Below, one piece after another: positions 2,457 through 25,866 of a stretch of 64,000 nt of DNA (within the stretch, counting starts at the first letter, position 1; each line of letters begins with the position of its first letter). The notes below the pieces were generated by a model. That model saw nothing but the letters and a program-made list of their open reading frames with translations. It had not been told where the DNA came from and did not search any database. The stretch is taken from the NCBI RefSeq assembly GCF_900163625.1, contig NZ_FUIE01000016.1, positions 1-64,000 of the forward strand, read 5' to 3'. This stretch comes from Brevundimonas diminuta 3F5N (GTDB lineage: Bacteria > Pseudomonadota > Alphaproteobacteria > Caulobacterales > Caulobacteraceae). Position numbers and translations under genes: made by a program.

Positions 2457-3946
2457 TGAGCCCCGAGCGCGAATACGAGTCGAAACAGATCGCCGTCATC
2501 GACATCGGCTCCAACTCGGTGCGTCTGGTGCTGTACCGGCTGGAAGGCCGCGCGGTCTGGACCATGTTCAACGAGAAGGTGCTGGCGGGTCTGGGCCGCG
2601 ATCTGGCCGCCACCCGGCGCCTGTCCGAGCCGGGTGTGATCATGGCCATGACGGCGCTGCGCCGCTTCGCCGCCGTGATCGAGGGCGTCCAGCCGGATCA
2701 GGTGCTGGTCGCCGCCACCGCCGCCGTGCGCGAAGCCGAGGACGGACCCCTGTTCTGCGAGCGCGTGGCCGCCGAGACGGGGCTGCGCATCCGCGTCCTC
2801 AGCGGCGAGGAAGAGGCGAAGTATTCGGCGCTGGGCGTGCTGGCGGGCGACCCCGGCGCGTGCGGCGTGGCCGCCGACATGGGCGGCGCCAGTCTGGAGC
2901 TGACGCGCATCGGCGACGGTCCGCGCGGCAAGGGCGTGACCCTGCCCCTAGGCCCCTTCGCCCTGCTGGACGCCAAGGGCTTCGACGCCGATCGCCTGCG
3001 CGGCCGCATCGCCAAACGGCTGGAGCCGATCCAGGACGACTATGCGACCTCGACGCTCTACGCCGTCGGCGGCGCCTGGCGCAGCCTGGCCCAGATGCAC
3101 ATGGCCATGATCGAGCACCCGATCCGCATCGTCCACCAGTATGTCCTGAACGCCGCTGACGCCCGCGATATGGCCCGTCTGGTCGCGCGTCAGTCCCGCG
3201 CCTCGCTGGAGAAGCTGCCCGGCCTGTCCAAGCGTCGCGCCGAAACCCTGCCCTACGCCGCCCTGGTGCTGGAAGGGCTGATCGACCGGCTGGGGCTTGG
3301 CTCGATCATCTTCTCGGCCTGGGGCGTGCGCGAGGGGCTGCTGTATCACGGCATGGAGCCTGCCATGCGGGCCGTCGACCCCCTGCTGGCCGGGTGTTCA
3401 GCCTGGGGCGGCCGCCAGGGCGTGGACCCCGCCCTGCCCCGCGCTCTGGACGGCTGGCTGCAATCGGTCGCCTCGGCGCTGCCTGAAGTGTTCGGCGAGG
3501 AGCGTGACGCCCTGCTGACCTCCTCGGTGTGTCGCCTGGCCGACCTGGGCGCTCGCCTGCACCCGGACCACCGCACCAATCTGGTGTTCGATCAGGTGCT
3601 GTGGTCGCCTATTCCCGGCCAGACCCACGCCGAGCGCGCCTTCATGGCTGTGGCGATAAACGCCCGCTATGGCGGCGAGGCGCGCACGCCCGCGCCGGAC
3701 ACGGTCAACCGCCTGCTGTCGGGGAAGGGCCAGAAGCGCGCCCGCGCCCTGGGCCTGGCCATGCGGCTGGCCTGCGACCTGTCGGGCCGCTCGCCGCAAC
3801 TTCTGGCCAACGCCACGGCCACGGTCGAGAAAGGCGCCCTGCGCGTCACCGCCGCCAACGGCTATGCCGACATGCTGCTGGGCGAACAGACAAAACGCCG
3901 GGCCAAGGCCCTGGCCGAAGCGATGGATCTGGCGCTGAAAATCTAA
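2456..3946 (+). CDS. ppx: Exopolyphosphatase (Ppx/GppA family)
   Basis: Enzymes of this family release phosphate from polyphosphate ends, and some also hydrolyse pppGpp. The ASKHA-type phosphatase fold shows as the phosphate-1 motif AVIDIGSNSVRLVLY near residues 13-27, a GEEEAKYSALG stretch containing the catalytic-region glutamates near 118-128, and the glycine-rich DMGGASLE motif near 141-148. The C-terminal 180 residues match the helical extension seen in longer Ppx proteins (496 residues in all). It overlaps ppk1 by one base, an arrangement that allows polyphosphate turnover to be set by one transcript. Guanosine pentaphosphatase activity cannot be excluded from sequence. Confidence 0.93.
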   Translation: MSPEREYESKQIAVIDIGSNSVRLVLYRLEGRAVWTMFNEKVLAGLGRDLAATRRLSEPGVIMAMTALRRFAAVIEGVQPDQVLVAATAAVREAEDGPLFCERVAAETGLRIRVLSGEEEAKYSALGVLAGDPGACGVAADMGGASLELTRIGDGPRGKGVTLPLGPFALLDAKGFDADRLRGRIAKRLEPIQDDYATSTLYAVGGAWRSLAQMHMAMIEHPIRIVHQYVLNAADARDMARLVARQSRASLEKLPGLSKRRAETLPYAALVLEGLIDRLGLGSIIFSAWGVREGLLYHGMEPAMRAVDPLLAGCSAWGGRQGVDPALPRALDGWLQSVASALPEVFGEERDALLTSSVCRLADLGARLHPDHRTNLVFDQVLWSPIPGQTHAERAFMAVAINARYGGEARTPAPDTVNRLLSGKGQKRARALGLAMRLACDLSGRSPQLLANATATVEKGALRVTAANGYADMLLGEQTKRRAKALAEAMDLALKI

Positions 3947-8517: not shown

Positions 8518-9102
8518 ATGTCCGTCGCCAAAACCCGCGTCGCCGTCCTGATCTCGGGAACCGGCTCGAACATGGCCAGCCTGATTGCGGCGGGCCAGAC
8601 GGCGGACGCACCGTATGAGGTCGTGGTCGTCGTCTCCAACATCGCGGGCGCGGGCGGTCTGGCCAAGGCCGAGGCGGCGGGCGTCGAAGCGTTGACCGTC
8701 GAACACAAACCCTTCGGCAAGGACCGAGAAGCGCATGAGCGCGCCATCGACGTCCTGCTGGTCGAGCGCGGCGTTCAGATGGTGGCCCTGGCCGGATACA
8801 TGCGCCTGCTGACGCCGTGGCTGGTCAGGAAATGGGCGGGCCGGATGCTGAACATCCACCCGTCGTTGCTGCCGCTCTATCCCGGCCTGAACACCCACGC
8901 CCGCGCCATCGAGGCCGGCGACCTTGAGGCGGGCTGCACCGTCCACATCGTCACCGAGGGCGTCGACGAAGGCCCTGTGCTGGGCCAGGCGCGCGTGCCG
9001 ATCCTGCCGGGCGACACGCCCGACATCCTGGCCGAACGGGTCAAGGCGGCGGAGCACGGCCTTTATCCCCAGGCGCTCGCCGATTTCGTCCGCCGCGCCT
9101 GA
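8518..9102 (+). CDS. purN: Phosphoribosylglycinamide formyltransferase
   Basis: PurN transfers a formyl group from 10-formyl-tetrahydrofolate to GAR in purine synthesis. The protein begins VAVLISGTGSNMASLI and carries the active-site stretch NIHPSLLPLYPG (catalytic Asn and His) and the later VDEGPVLGQ Asp loop. I chose the ATG at 8518 (MSVAKTRV, 194 residues) because it gives the usual N-terminus; an in-frame ATG at 8446 would add 24 residues without family similarity. It is isolated from purM by the S10 peptidase gene. Confidence 0.95.
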   Translation: MSVAKTRVAVLISGTGSNMASLIAAGQTADAPYEVVVVVSNIAGAGGLAKAEAAGVEALTVEHKPFGKDREAHERAIDVLLVERGVQMVALAGYMRLLTPWLVRKWAGRMLNIHPSLLPLYPGLNTHARAIEAGDLEAGCTVHIVTEGVDEGPVLGQARVPILPGDTPDILAERVKAAEHGLYPQALADFVRRA

Positions 9103-22201: not shown

Positions 22202-23572
22202 ATGGGTTTGATGCGTTACTCTACGGGAGCCGCCCTGGCCGCCCTTATGGTCGTGGCCGCCGTGGAGCCTTCCTCGGCGCAGACCGCGTCTGCGCCCGCC
22301 GCCCAGGCTGCTCCCCAGGTTCCGGCCGCAGGCGCGCTGAACCCCGCCGCTGAGGAAGCGCCCCAGCGCGTCGCCCCTGCGCCGCAGTTCCGCCTGTCTG
22401 ACGGCATCATCGCCACGGTCAACGACCGCATCATCACCGGCTTCGACCTGCGCCAGCGAATGCTGGTGCTGATGGCCATGACCCAGGTGCAGCCGACCGA
22501 AGAAACCATCGCCGCCATCCAGCAACAGGCGCTGAACGACCTGATCGATCAGCACCTGCAAGCCGCCGAGCTGGCCAAGTTCGAGCAGCTCAAGATCGGC
22601 GACGCCGAAGTCGATCAGGAAATCGCCGACATGGCCCGCCAGGCGGGCACGACCCCGGCCAGCTACATCAACTTCCTGGAACAGGGCGGCATCAGCATCC
22701 CCGCCTTCCGTGAACAGATGCGTACCGAGATCGGCTGGCGCGAACTGGTCGGCGGCCGGTTCCGCGACCGCGCCCGCGTCGGCAAGAGCCAGGTCGATCA
22801 GACCATGCGCCAGATGACCGAATCGGCGACCAAGCCTCAATATCTGATCGGCGAAATCTACCTGGAGGCCGCCCGCGTCGGCGGCATGCAGGAAGCCGTG
22901 AACGGCGCGCGGCAACTGGTTCAGCAGATGATCCAGGGCGCCCCCTTCATGGCCGTGGCGCGCCAGTTCTCGGCCGCCCCTTCGGCCGCCCGCGGCGGCG
23001 ACGCAGGCTGGGTGGTTCAGGGCACGGTCCAGCCTGCGCTGCAAACGGTCATGGACACGCTGGAAGCCGGCCAATTGTCGAACCCCATCCCGGTCGATGG
23101 CGGCGTCTACATCCTCTACATGCGCGACAAGCGTTCGGGCGCATCGACCAGCATGGTCAAGATGAAGCAGGTCATGGTCGAGCTGCCCGAGACCGCCGAC
23201 GAAGCCCAGGTCGCCGCCGCGACTCAGCGCCTCGAGGCTCTGCGCGGCCAGCTGACGTGCGACAACATTCTAACCCGCGCGCGTTCGGAACCGGGCCTGC
23301 TGGGCGCCGATCTGGGCGAGAGCGACGTCGCGGACCTGTTGCCGCAGTTCCAACAGGTCGCCCGCTCGGCCGAAATCGGCTCGGTCAGCACGGCGGTCCG
23401 CACCCCGCTGGGCGTCCACCTGCTGGCCGTCTGTGATCGGCGCCTGGGCGGCCCTGACGCCCCCTCGGCGCAACAGGTCGAAGCCCGCCTGCAGAACCAG
23501 AACTACGCCATGCTGGGCCGCCGCTACCTGCGCGACCTGCGGGCCGACGCCCTGATCGAAATCAAGCAATGA
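22202..23572 (+). CDS. surA: Periplasmic chaperone / peptidyl-prolyl isomerase SurA
   Basis: SurA escorts outer-membrane proteins, including LptD, to the BAM complex. I chose the ATG at 22202 (MGLMRYSTGAALAAL), which gives a signal peptide cleaved near SSAQ and 456 residues; the longer frame from 22112 has no signal peptide. The SurA_N domain (about residues 70-200, containing VNDRIITGFDLRQRMLVLM) is followed by a parvulin-type domain with GEIYLEA and GGDAGWV, and by a second degenerate PPIase-like region. It sits between lptD and pdxA, the classical surA-pdxA-rsmA order. Its stop overlaps the pdxA start. Confidence 0.92.
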   Translation: MGLMRYSTGAALAALMVVAAVEPSSAQTASAPAAQAAPQVPAAGALNPAAEEAPQRVAPAPQFRLSDGIIATVNDRIITGFDLRQRMLVLMAMTQVQPTEETIAAIQQQALNDLIDQHLQAAELAKFEQLKIGDAEVDQEIADMARQAGTTPASYINFLEQGGISIPAFREQMRTEIGWRELVGGRFRDRARVGKSQVDQTMRQMTESATKPQYLIGEIYLEAARVGGMQEAVNGARQLVQQMIQGAPFMAVARQFSAAPSAARGGDAGWVVQGTVQPALQTVMDTLEAGQLSNPIPVDGGVYILYMRDKRSGASTSMVKMKQVMVELPETADEAQVAAATQRLEALRGQLTCDNILTRARSEPGLLGADLGESDVADLLPQFQQVARSAEIGSVSTAVRTPLGVHLLAVCDRRLGGPDAPSAQQVEARLQNQNYAMLGRRYLRDLRADALIEIKQ

Positions 23573-24588
23573 CGATGATCCGGCCGCTCATCGTTACGAT
23601 GGGCGACCCCGCCGGGGTGGGGCCGGAAATCATCGCGCGCGCCTGGTCGGTGCTGGGCTCCGCGCCCGGCCCGCTGGCGCCGGTCGTGCCCTTCGTCGTC
23701 GTCGGCGACGCCGATGTTCTGAAGGCGCAGGGCCAGCCGGTCGAGGCTGTCATCAGCCCGGCTGACGCCGCCGGCGTCTTCAGCCGCGCCATCCCCGTCC
23801 TGCATCATCCAGCCCCCGCATCCGTGACGGCGGGTCAGCCTGAGCCCGCCAACGCCGTCGCCGTGGCCGACTGGATCGAACGCGGCGTCGACCTGGTGCT
23901 GTCAGGCGAAGGCTGCGGGCTAGTGACGGCCCCCATCGCCAAGGCGCCTATGTACGCCTCCGGCTTCCGCTTTCCGGGCCACACCGAGTTCATCGCCGAA
24001 CTGACCGCCGACGTTCCGTTCAGCGGCACGCGCGGCCCGGTGATGATGCTGACGGCGCAGAACCTGCGCGCCTGCCTCGTCACCATCCATGTGCCGATCG
24101 ACCAGCTGCCCGAACTGGTGACGGGCGAGCGCGTCGCCCGCGTCGCCCGCGTCGTCCACGAATCGATGAAGCGCGATTTCGGCATCGCCGCCCCGCGCCT
24201 GGCCATGGCCGCGCTGAACCCTCACGCGGGCGAAGGCGGCGCCATCGGCCTGCAGGAGGCGACGGTTCTGCGTCCCGCCGCCGAAGCCCTGCGCGCCGAG
24301 GGGCTGAACATCACCGATCCCCTGCCCGCCGACACCCTGTTCCATGAGGAAGCGCGGGCGCGCTACGACGCCGTGGTCTGCCTCTATCACGATCAGGCGC
24401 TGATCCCGGTAAAGACTCTGGACTTCTGGGGCGGGGTCAACGCCACCCTCGGCCTGCCCATCGTCCGCACCTCGCCCGACCACGGCACCGGCTTCGACAT
24501 CGCGGGCAAGGGCGTCGCCCGCGCCGACAGCTTCATCGCCGCCGTCCGCCTGGCTTCTGAGATGGCGTCCGCGCGCGCCAACCGATAG
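23569..24588 (+). CDS. pdxA: 4-hydroxythreonine-4-phosphate dehydrogenase
   Basis: PdxA oxidises 4-phosphohydroxy-L-threonine in DXP-dependent vitamin B6 synthesis. The 339-residue protein carries VTMGDPAGVGPEI at the N-terminus, the substrate/metal motif GHTEFIAE, NPHAGEGG and YHDQALIPVK, covering the three metal-ligand regions. It overlaps surA by four bases. rsmA, normally its direct neighbour, is pushed about 470 bases away by the palindrome-bounded DUF559 element that begins at the pdxA stop codon. Confidence 0.96.
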   Translation: MTMIRPLIVTMGDPAGVGPEIIARAWSVLGSAPGPLAPVVPFVVVGDADVLKAQGQPVEAVISPADAAGVFSRAIPVLHHPAPASVTAGQPEPANAVAVADWIERGVDLVLSGEGCGLVTAPIAKAPMYASGFRFPGHTEFIAELTADVPFSGTRGPVMMLTAQNLRACLVTIHVPIDQLPELVTGERVARVARVVHESMKRDFGIAAPRLAMAALNPHAGEGGAIGLQEATVLRPAAEALRAEGLNITDPLPADTLFHEEARARYDAVVCLYHDQALIPVKTLDFWGGVNATLGLPIVRTSPDHGTGFDIAGKGVARADSFIAAVRLASEMASARANR

Positions 24589-25057
24589 CCTTCTCCCCTC
24601 GGGGGAGAAGGTGGGCGCCTTAGGCGCTCGGATGAGGGGGCGGCCAGCCATGTGGCAGACGCCAGACAGGACGAAGCGCGCCCGTCGACAGCGCCGGGCC
24701 CTCACCCACGCCGAAGAAATATTTTGGCGGATCGTCCGCGACCGCCGCTTCGATAATCTCAAGTTTCGCCGACAGACGCCTGTCTGCGGCGTGATCTGCG
24801 ACTTCGCCTGCACGGAAATTCGACTCGTCGTAGAACTGGACGGCGGCGTCCATAAGCTTCATGAGGCACGGGATGCTGAACGTGACGCCAGACTGGAGCA
24901 GGCGGAATTCATGGTGCTGAGATCGGGCAATGAGGCCTTCCTGTCCGACCCCAACGTCCTGCTGGGTGCGATCCGCCTTCGTGCGTCGCAGATGCGGACG
25001 CAGCCCCCTCATCCGTCTCGCTCCGCGAGCTGCGTTCTCCCCCGAGGGGAGAAGGGC
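24588..25057. mobile_element. Palindrome-bounded element carrying a DUF559 gene
   Basis: Two inverted arms, 24588-24641 and 25003-25057, bound a single small gene. The outer tip of each is the foldback CTTCTCCCCTCGGGGGAGAAG or its near-copy, and the inner tip is CGGATGAGGGGGC or its complement. Between them each arm has its own hairpin whose bases differ but whose pairing is kept (GCGCCTTAGGCGC against CTCGCTCCGCGAG). The unit splits the usual pdxA-rsmA junction exactly at the pdxA stop and the rsmA start. Mobility is inferred: there is no recognisable transposase or target-site duplication. Confidence 0.6.
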
Positions 25058-25063
25058 GAATGA
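24650..25063 (+). CDS. DUF559 protein (PD-(D/E)XK nuclease-like, Vsr-related)
   Basis: A 137-residue protein with the DUF559 core: LTHAEEIFWRIVRDRRF, LKFRRQTPVCGVICDF and VVELDGGVH. Asp51, Glu62 and Asp64 are the likely metal-binding positions, followed by His68, so nuclease chemistry looks intact. I prefer the ATG at 24650, since GAGGGGG in the left repeat arm lies nine bases upstream; the frame is open to an ATG at 24611, inside the arm. The last 18 or so residues (from about PPHPSRS) are encoded by the right arm and look non-domain. The stop overlaps the rsmA ATG by four bases. No function is established for this family. Confidence 0.85.
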   Translation: MWQTPDRTKRARRQRRALTHAEEIFWRIVRDRRFDNLKFRRQTPVCGVICDFACTEIRLVVELDGGVHKLHEARDAERDARLEQAEFMVLRSGNEAFLSDPNVLLGAIRLRASQMRTQPPHPSRSASCVLPRGEKGE

Positions 25064-25866
25064 CCTTGCCCTCCCTGCGTGAAACGCTCGACGCCCACGG
25101 CCTGTCGGCCAAGAAGAGCTTCGGCCAGCACTTCCTGCTGGACCTGAACGTCACGCGGAAGATCGTTCGCTACGCCGGGCCGTTCGACGGCCGCGCCGTT
25201 ATCGAGGTCGGCCCCGGCCCCGGCGGCCTGACCCGCGCCCTGCTGGAGAGCGATGCAGGCAAGGTGGTGCTGGTTGAAAAAGATCCGCGCTTCATCCCCT
25301 TGCTGTCCGAACTGGACGACGGCTCGGGCCGTCTGACCATCGTCGAGGCCGACGCCCTGAAGGTGAAAGAGGCCGAACTGGTCGAGGGGCCGGCGCATCT
25401 GGTCTCCAACCTGCCCTACAACGTCGGCACGCCGCTGCTGATCAAATGGCTGACGGGCCCGTGGACGCCGTGCGCTCTGACCCTGATGTTCCAGAAGGAA
25501 GTCGCCGAGCGCGTGGTGGCCCAGCCGGGCGAGGACGCCTATGGCCGCTTGGCCGTCATCACCCAGGCCGTGGCCGAGGCGCGCATCGTCATGCACCTGC
25601 CCGCCGCCGCCTTCACCCCGCCGCCCAAGGTGGCCTCGGCCGTGGTGCATCTGATACCGTTGAGCGAGCGCCCCGCCCCCGACCGTCTGAAGCGGCTGGA
25701 ACGGGTCACGGCGGCCGCCTTTGGCCAGCGTCGCAAGATGCTGCGCTCCAGCCTGAAACAACTCGGCGGCGCCGCCCTGTGCGAAGCCGCTGGAATCGAA
25801 CCCGACGCCCGCGCCGAGACCATCGACGTGGCGGGCTTCCTCAGATTGGCCGATGCTTTGACATGA
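25060..25866 (+). CDS. rsmA: 16S rRNA (adenine1518/1519-N6) dimethyltransferase
   Basis: RsmA (KsgA) dimethylates two adjacent adenines in the 3' hairpin of 16S rRNA during 30S maturation. The 268-residue protein has SFGQHFLLDLNV near the N-terminus, the SAM site VIEVGPGPGGLTRALL and the catalytic NLPYNVGTPLL. The ribosome-binding site (GGGGAGAAGGG) lies in the right arm of the upstream DUF559 element, so the inserted palindrome supplies the translation signal. The stop overlaps the next gene's ATG. Confidence 0.96.
   Translation: MTLPSLRETLDAHGLSAKKSFGQHFLLDLNVTRKIVRYAGPFDGRAVIEVGPGPGGLTRALLESDAGKVVLVEKDPRFIPLLSELDDGSGRLTIVEADALKVKEAELVEGPAHLVSNLPYNVGTPLLIKWLTGPWTPCALTLMFQKEVAERVVAQPGEDAYGRLAVITQAVAEARIVMHLPAAAFTPPPKVASAVVHLIPLSERPAPDRLKRLERVTAAAFGQRRKMLRSSLKQLGGAALCEAAGIEPDARAETIDVAGFLRLADALT

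Follow-up and report, generated by a model that had tools for sequence, protein, structure and literature searches.

A DUF559 nuclease gene between inverted triplex-motif-like arms in Brevundimonas, and its possible place in a REPIN-like repeat family

The stretch of DNA analysed here (the window) comprises 64,000 nucleotides of Brevundimonas diminuta 3F5N. Between its pdxA and rsmA genes it carries a single small gene, with an ATG at 24650 and a stop at 25063, enclosed by two arms in inverted orientation. The features of this element and of its flanks are the following:

23569–24588, plus strand: pdxA, upstream flank (NCBIfam, above cut-off)
24589–24639, plus strand: left arm (read from the sequence)
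24589–24611, plus strand: left arm, stem 1 (CCTTCTCCCC / GGGGAGAAGG, 3-nt loop; a 10-bp hairpin in the DNA fold)
24613–24629, plus strand: left arm, second hairpin (loop TTA; read from the sequence and its orthologues)
24630–24639, plus strand: left arm, G-rich third-strand tract (GGATGAGGGG), mirroring the purine strand of stem 1
24650–25063, plus strand: DUF559 (PF04480) PD-(D/E)XK nuclease gene, 137 aa (Pfam profile, fold, D51/E62/D64)
25005–25055, minus strand: right arm, inverted (read from the sequence)
25005–25014, minus strand: right arm, third-strand tract (GGATGAGGGG on the minus strand)
25017–25029, minus strand: right arm, second hairpin (loop GGA on the minus strand, a GNA triloop)
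25035–25055, minus strand: right arm, stem 1 (outer base pairs worn)
25060–25866, plus strand: rsmA, downstream flank (NCBIfam, above cut-off)

An earlier note on this DNA had placed the element in a surA-pdxA-rsmA neighbourhood; pdxA and rsmA were recovered as named, whereas surA, the best match of the preceding gene, lies far below its cut-off. The stop codon of the nuclease gene overlaps the start of rsmA as ATGA (25060–25063), and its reading frame traverses the whole right arm, which is likewise read through in 39 of the 89 armed DUF559 genes of the genus. The encoded protein matches the Pfam DUF559 profile with E=6.6e-30 and 103.6 bits (curated cut-off 20.6). The PD-(D/E)XK core proposed in that note (Asp51, Glu62, and Asp64) proved invariant among 20 aligned sequences, and the predicted fold (pLDDT 85.9) is closest to 3hrl (Z 14.2), the sole PDB sequence relative of the protein at E 0.01, followed by the catalytic domain of I-Bth0305I (3r3p_A, Z 10.6), with Vsr (1cw0, Z 8.9) also among its structural neighbours. 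Pfam still lists DUF559 without an assigned function. The nuclease of the window is conserved, with a dN/dS of 0.11 against its orthologue in genome G007; the orthologue in genome G031 has a frameshift near its start.

Each arm of the window element is ordered as stem 1, second hairpin, and GGATGAGGGG. The outer 21 nt of the two arms are 100% complementary (24589–24609 and 25035–25055) and the inner 16 nt 94% complementary (24629–24644 and 25000–25015), and the outer hairpin pattern matches twice in the window and never in any of 100 shuffles, so that the two-hairpin inverted arms around one small gene, as first noticed, stand. When folded as single-stranded DNA, the left arm reaches a z-score of −4.3 and the right arm, because its stem is worn, only −1.1, against about −3.9 for both arms of an intact pair elsewhere and +0.7 for a control stretch. 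In the G007 and G031 orthologues the right arm is intact; that of the window is a worn copy. These orthologues also have GAA in place of TTA as the loop of the left-arm second hairpin, and this hairpin is absent from the minimum-energy DNA fold of the worn copy in the window.

The window locus is one case of a widespread pattern. DUF559 was found in 38 of 41 Brevundimonas genomes, and all three DUF559 genes of the window's own genome (G000) are flanked by inverted arms, one of them with other letters in the same design. The genus set, which took all listed matches except some partial ones, holds 135 DUF559 domains, 133 of them testable; inverted repeats scoring at least 32 flank 97 of these 133 genes (93 at a score of at least 40), against 4 of 363 control windows. 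Of these four controls, the highest-scoring (42) coincides with the window element, met again in a different locus, and the remaining three (34) overlap one another at a single position of contig C38. An earlier pass had found 27 of 32 genes flanked, with all 121 controls at or below 30. No pair was detected around 38 genus genes, including two untestable ones; 31 of these 38 have an arm hairpin on at least one side, and such a hairpin occurs in 21 of 295 random 300-nt windows. Beyond the genus, named loci, chosen by similarity to a query alignment drawn from Brevundimonas, reached a score of at least 36 in 56 of 80 cases, against 2 of 285 controls (scores 37 and 88); by their titles, armed loci come from Alpha-, Beta-, and Gammaproteobacteria, Chloroflexi, Planctomycetes, Capsulimonas, and Binatia, and a Limisphaerales locus has a weak flanking score (38). 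DUF559 genes lacking palindromes in relatives had been named beforehand as evidence against an element of this kind. Within the genus they are rare, only 7 of the 135 genes being free of both flanking inverted repeats and arm-like hairpins, but outside it 60 of 82 named-locus domains score at least 32 and 22 remain below, without detected arms; 13 of these 22 belong, by record title, to what we take to be the Rhizobiales.

The pdxA-rsmA junction looks like an insertion hot spot. We compared 30 loci of the genus around rsmA (from 39 rsmA matches), 29 of which have a pdxA match, and found 20 of these 29 junctions empty, with gaps of 11–79 nt and no insert, which bears out the proposed insertion at this point and departs from the uniform, vertically inherited occupancy that would have spoken against it. 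The window element itself is carried by three genomes (G000, G007, and G031). The junction of G032 holds a different DUF559 gene with arms of its own, that of G027, by eye, a gene-free pair of another arm class, and that of G017, also by eye, another gene; in G018, outside those 30 loci, a DUF559 gene with GGGAGG-class arms stands, by its coordinates, directly before rsmA. These different inserts probably reflect separate insertions, since the junctions of nearer relatives are empty. Palindromes of other kinds were also seen here. A second family with unrelated letters (CCGCTCATCCCCGCGGAGGCGGGGACCCAGTG and its inverse) forms, by eye, a pair between pdxA and rsmA of G001 (L052) and recurs in G031 (L297, about 2314–2490) and G007 (L298, about 2836–3195), occupying the same stop/start junctions as the arm pairs of other genomes; a third type (GGTTGGTGATTGGTGG and similar) lies, again by eye, at pdxA-rsmA in G030 (L074) and G021 (L076).

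Most arms in G000 enclose no gene. The strict arm pattern, after removal of one overlapping artefact match (C86:141908), gives 88 arms in this genome, namely 33 close pairs, one pair 440 nt apart, and 20 unpaired arms, while a reversed-pattern control gives 0; the suggested search for arms elsewhere in the chromosome, solo copies included, was thus answered positively. All 33 close pairs share one facing, with 68–119 nt between starts, and the 440-nt pair, the sole strict-pattern pair 151–600 nt apart, encloses a DUF559 gene. Several G000 contigs end in or beside an arm (for example C2, C12, C16, C34, C70, and C85), and some of the 20 unpaired arms lie near contig ends; the repeats therefore probably break the assembly, and the copy counts are lower bounds.

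These gene-free pairs are scattered and polymorphic. On contig C84, G031 and G007 both lack one pair that G000 has, G007 lacks a second and G023 a third, and one site that is empty in G000 is filled in G007 and G023. A DUF559 gene of G000 with GGGAGG-class arms, near the start of the same contig, is missing in G031, which has at that site a single remaining hairpin (TTTTTCCTCCCC..GGGGAGGAAAAA, L297, about 8744–8765) like the collapsed copies of Escherichia coli described below. The polymorphic insertions are located at or beside stop/start overlaps, with ATGA- or GTGA-type stop/start letters at both ends; such flanking letters may reflect either a short duplication or selection that spares both genes, the aligned relatives (mostly 86–94% identical for G007 and G031, 81–91% for G023) being too far apart to fix the insertion ends or a target duplication. 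The gene-bearing form seems to move rarely: the 135 DUF559 genes of the genus fall into 59 site groups, and among 25 pairs of genus proteins at least 90% identical none occurs at different sites.

The arms have an elaborate and constrained design. A second stem of 4 bp or more is present in 175 of 200 distinct arms whose linker measures at least 10 nt, compared with 42 of 200 after shuffling, and these 175 second hairpins have a GNA triloop in 145 cases and a C-G closing pair in 166. C-GNA-G loops are hyperstable DNA mini-hairpins, which suggests single-stranded DNA as the selected form. The pairing of the second hairpin is conserved through compensating changes, seen in stem 2 among 49 distinct 18-nt linkers, where one base pair is CG 18 times, TA 11 times, AT 10 times, and GC 4 times. 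A third-strand mirror of at least 0.9 was found in 92 of 252 nuclease-flanking arms and missed by the other 160, compared with about 1% of shuffled tails and 4.7% of tails of other classes.

This layout is that of the intrastrand triplex motif (TM; TMECO in E. coli, earlier PIT) described by Holder et al. (2015, PMC4666352), in which, according to the text available, a stem and a mirror G-tract (CCCTCNCCC..GGGNGAGGG..GGGNGAGGG) likewise form inverted pairs with two arm types. The left arm of the window has the corresponding pyrimidine-purine stem followed by a matching antiparallel purine tract (GGGGAGAAGG / GGATGAGGGG). Brevundimonas arms share the TM layout, with the triplex itself predicted from the letters, but many of them, unlike the TM as described there, insert an extra hairpin between stem and third strand. 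From the same portions of that paper, the TMECO triplex forms in vitro while its stable formation in vivo is unsupported, no mobility genes lie near E. coli TM sites, and an earlier study cited there found neither promoter nor terminator activity; the paper contains no word beginning with "nuclease" and no "DUF559".

Arm class tracks the nuclease clade and not the host genome. On a tree of the 135 genus proteins, built on few columns and with many open forks, arm class changes 13 times in 97 rows, compared with a mean of 48.8 and a minimum of 40 after shuffling; with one row per insertion site, there are 6 changes over 44 rows, compared with a shuffled mean of 18.9 and never fewer than 15. More than one arm class is present in 26 of the 38 genomes. 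The comparison of arms and proteins called for in the earlier note thus shows arm class following the protein tree. The association extends to arms away from nuclease genes: those of the GGAAGG class occur in 11 of 13 genomes with a nuclease of this class and in 5 of the 28 others (p=8e-5), G001 and G032 being counted among the 13 by eye, on one adjacent arm each, against an automatic label of "none". For the AGAAGG class, hairpin counts did not differ significantly between genomes with and without the corresponding nuclease class (p=0.12), the hairpin-only pattern used there being looser and also picking up short-loop hairpins, for example in G013.

Across 219 Pseudomonadota genomes, 43 have both TM repeats and DUF559, 10 TM only, 11 DUF559 only, and 155 neither (p=1.1e-25), with DUF559 called at PF04480 E<1e-10 and weaker matches dropped, including those of the TM-bearing G065 and G199. 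The observed co-occurrence was reached in 0 of 5000 shuffles within families and in 147 of 5000 within genera, the latter weakly significant. TM repeats showed no association with Y1 transposases in the same 219 genomes (28/25/100/66, p=0.34). In eight genomes three or more TM repeats occur but DUF559 does not. Six of these eight have a completeness of 96% or higher, and the top two by TM count are incomplete genomes (G178, 87%, 129 matches; G199, 69%, 104 matches), and DUF559 is present in G195, a genus-mate of G199. The richest of the six is G237, with 49 TM repeats and no DUF559 at E<1e-10, for which a relic, a loss, or a different mobiliser are possible readings.

E. coli K-12, with 23 TM copies (according to the available part of PMC4666352), possesses the DUF559 gene ycjD, and TMECO number 9 lies between ycjD and fabI, as one TM adjacent to the gene. 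In a sample of 60 of 4585 records matching a joined ycjD-plus-TM query, with the plasmid-sized H175 dropped, TM places number 3–9 (mean 6.2) in 44 ycjD-positive records and 1–7 (mean 3.9) in 15 ycjD-negative ones (p=4e-4); the records are clonal, and both phylogroup and the derivation of the query from K-12 confound this comparison. Neither part of that query has a match in 850 of 5426 genomes. Copies are polymorphic here too: the hrpB-mrcB pair is absent in two strains, leaving a clean empty site with no clear target duplication, and collapsed to one hairpin in a third, and the alx-sstT pair is collapsed in two strains. Two candidates were set aside. The two strains without ycjD that were compared do not offer a clean empty site, an efflux operon following fabI in its place, and eefRABCD has been described between fabI and sapF (PMC12817139, as far as available). 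In strain NCTC_13148 a GC-rich insert (L343, 440–1060) with an annotated ORF of 100 aa replaces the TM pair between alx and sstT; its gene, considered as an armed DUF559, has no DUF559 or other Pfam match.

We consider the best reading of these data, with a probability of about 0.6, to be a REPIN-like family of repeats associated with a DUF559 PD-(D/E)XK nuclease where REPINs have their RAYT. Each arm would fold on one strand, its hairpins followed by the G-rich tract laid back on the stem as a third strand, and the two arms would face each other with their stems outward. The gene-free pairs (about 120–170 bp) would be the non-autonomous form and the gene-bearing form, as at pdxA-rsmA, the source of nuclease, which may recognise folded arms of its own class when these become single-stranded at replication forks or during repair and cut at or beside them. 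Host replication or repair might then copy the pair into new intergenic sites, and copies would survive where the genes on both sides are left intact. We infer that the nuclease moves the arms, and this applies to binding, cutting, and copying as well as to the direction of causation. The wider proposition, that TM repeats, those of E. coli included, are non-autonomous copies of an unrecognised class of mobile system present in several phyla, in which a single-domain DUF559 nuclease copies folded single-stranded triplex arms and whose origin is independent of the HUH-based RAYT/REP system, appears to us evenly balanced between right and wrong.

The main rivals are a policing nuclease and a homing-type gene. 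DUF559 proteins might cut hairpin or triplex DNA in repair, at stalled structures, or in defence, with arms that regulate or protect the genes inside. The kinship with Vsr (Z 8.9), the three E. coli strains with a pair collapsed to a single hairpin, the similar small deletions reported by Holder et al. (in the part of PMC4666352 available), and VsrA, a proposed repair nuclease needed for an SOS response (PMC12907096, likewise in part), are all consistent with such a guard. A guard should nevertheless lower the number of repeats, yet DUF559 is present in 43 of the 53 TM genomes and TM places are more numerous in the sampled ycjD-positive E. coli records, and a general guard gives no reason to expect that, across insertion sites, arm class should match nuclease clade; we regard this explanation as rather improbable.

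Still less probable is a homing-type selfish gene that would cut arm-free alleles and be copied in by repair, the arms being repair-shaped ends and the gene-free pairs deletion remnants. It would fit the I-Bth0305I catalytic domain as second-best fold neighbour, the tendency of gene-bearing forms to share sites, the 135 genes occupying 59 site groups, and the different DUF559 genes at pdxA-rsmA in G032 and, by coordinates, in G018, whose arms are of another class. However, the gene-free pairs far outnumber the genes (33 pairs and 3 genes in G000) and, unlike random deletion remnants, keep one orientation and a narrow spacing (68–119 nt). Very unlikely, in our view, are transcription terminators or RNA stabilisers around a poorly expressed gene, with only an indirect association: the arms do hold hairpins and lie between genes, but their facing pairs, mirror tract, GNA triloop, and class match to the nuclease would need another reason, and TM repeats lacked promoter or terminator activity in the study cited in PMC4666352 (seen in part). 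A RAYT or IS200-type transposase encoded elsewhere, with DUF559 genes as passengers, is suggested by the REPIN-like layout and by the proposed role of RAYTs as REP mobilisers (PMC8049555; PMC8266576; both seen in part), but is just as improbable given the missing TM-Y1 association over the 219 genomes (p=0.34) and the absence of any Y1_Tnp (PF01797) match in G000, G004, and G032 despite their 89, 44, and 14 arm matches, and as mobiliser in G000 it is not supported.

If the nuclease-driven repeat family is the correct reading, DUF559 nucleases are candidate spreaders of a very common and unexplained bacterial repeat. The link between TM and DUF559 would provide a testable role for both the repeat and the nuclease family, and can be tested in E. 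coli K-12, which has ycjD together with TM copies. Small nucleases with differing arm classes may also have separable DNA-structure specificities.

Several known systems resemble parts of this one. The catalytic fold of I-Bth0305I, a Vsr-fold homing endonuclease, is related to that of the window protein (Z 10.6), and it too acts within a selfish element, presumably as part of a mobile intron; to our knowledge it has neither flanking hairpin arms nor gene-free copies. Insertion sequences differ in having near-identical gene-bearing copies at several sites, which the 25 pairs of genus proteins did not reveal. Closer in sequence is VsrA of Caulobacter, which has a DUF559 domain and thus belongs to the same family; it is required for the SOS response of cells without a cytosine methyltransferase and has been proposed to act in mismatch repair (PMC12907096, from the part available). 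YcjD has been placed within PD-(D/E)XK, its profile detecting Vsr (PMC1189080). YcjD, VsrA, and Vsr are all proposed to be repair or restriction-type nucleases, and the available portions of these texts draw no link to flanking repeats; among the literature matches listed, with limited coverage of subscription papers and preprints, no title or abstract opening links DUF559 to repeats either. As for the repeats, CGTC REPs are palindromic dimers, mostly of Alphaproteobacteria, without a dedicated transposase, and differ by their description from the present arms in having a single stem of 8–9 bp and an unpaired CGTC tag (PMC3733652, as far as available); Caulobacter also has CIR repeats (PMC2229807, as far as available).

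The nearest parallel is REP/REPIN with its RAYT, a comparison that the earlier note had already drawn, with the tyrosine transposase replaced by a Vsr-related nuclease. That likeness is upheld by the recurrence of the arrangement, the gene-free copies, the match between class and clade, the empty sites, and the co-occurrence across genomes. Both systems have dispersed, inverted pairs of intergenic hairpins, many of them gene-free and few gene-bearing, and, for RAYTs as described in the available part of PMC8049555, a gene that is flanked by its own repeats and rarely moves, and repeats that are commoner where the gene is present. They part at the enzyme, since a RAYT is an HUH Y1 (tyrosine) transposase whereas the gene beside the present arms encodes a PD-(D/E)XK DUF559 protein and G000 has no PF01797 match genome-wide, and at the repeat, REPs being marked by a GTAG-type tag and the present arms by a triplex-type third-strand tract together with a second, GNA-looped hairpin. 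As the enzyme is what defines REPIN/RAYT, we do not file the present system under that name; it would instead stand beside REP/RAYT as a second system of a repeat plus its enzyme.
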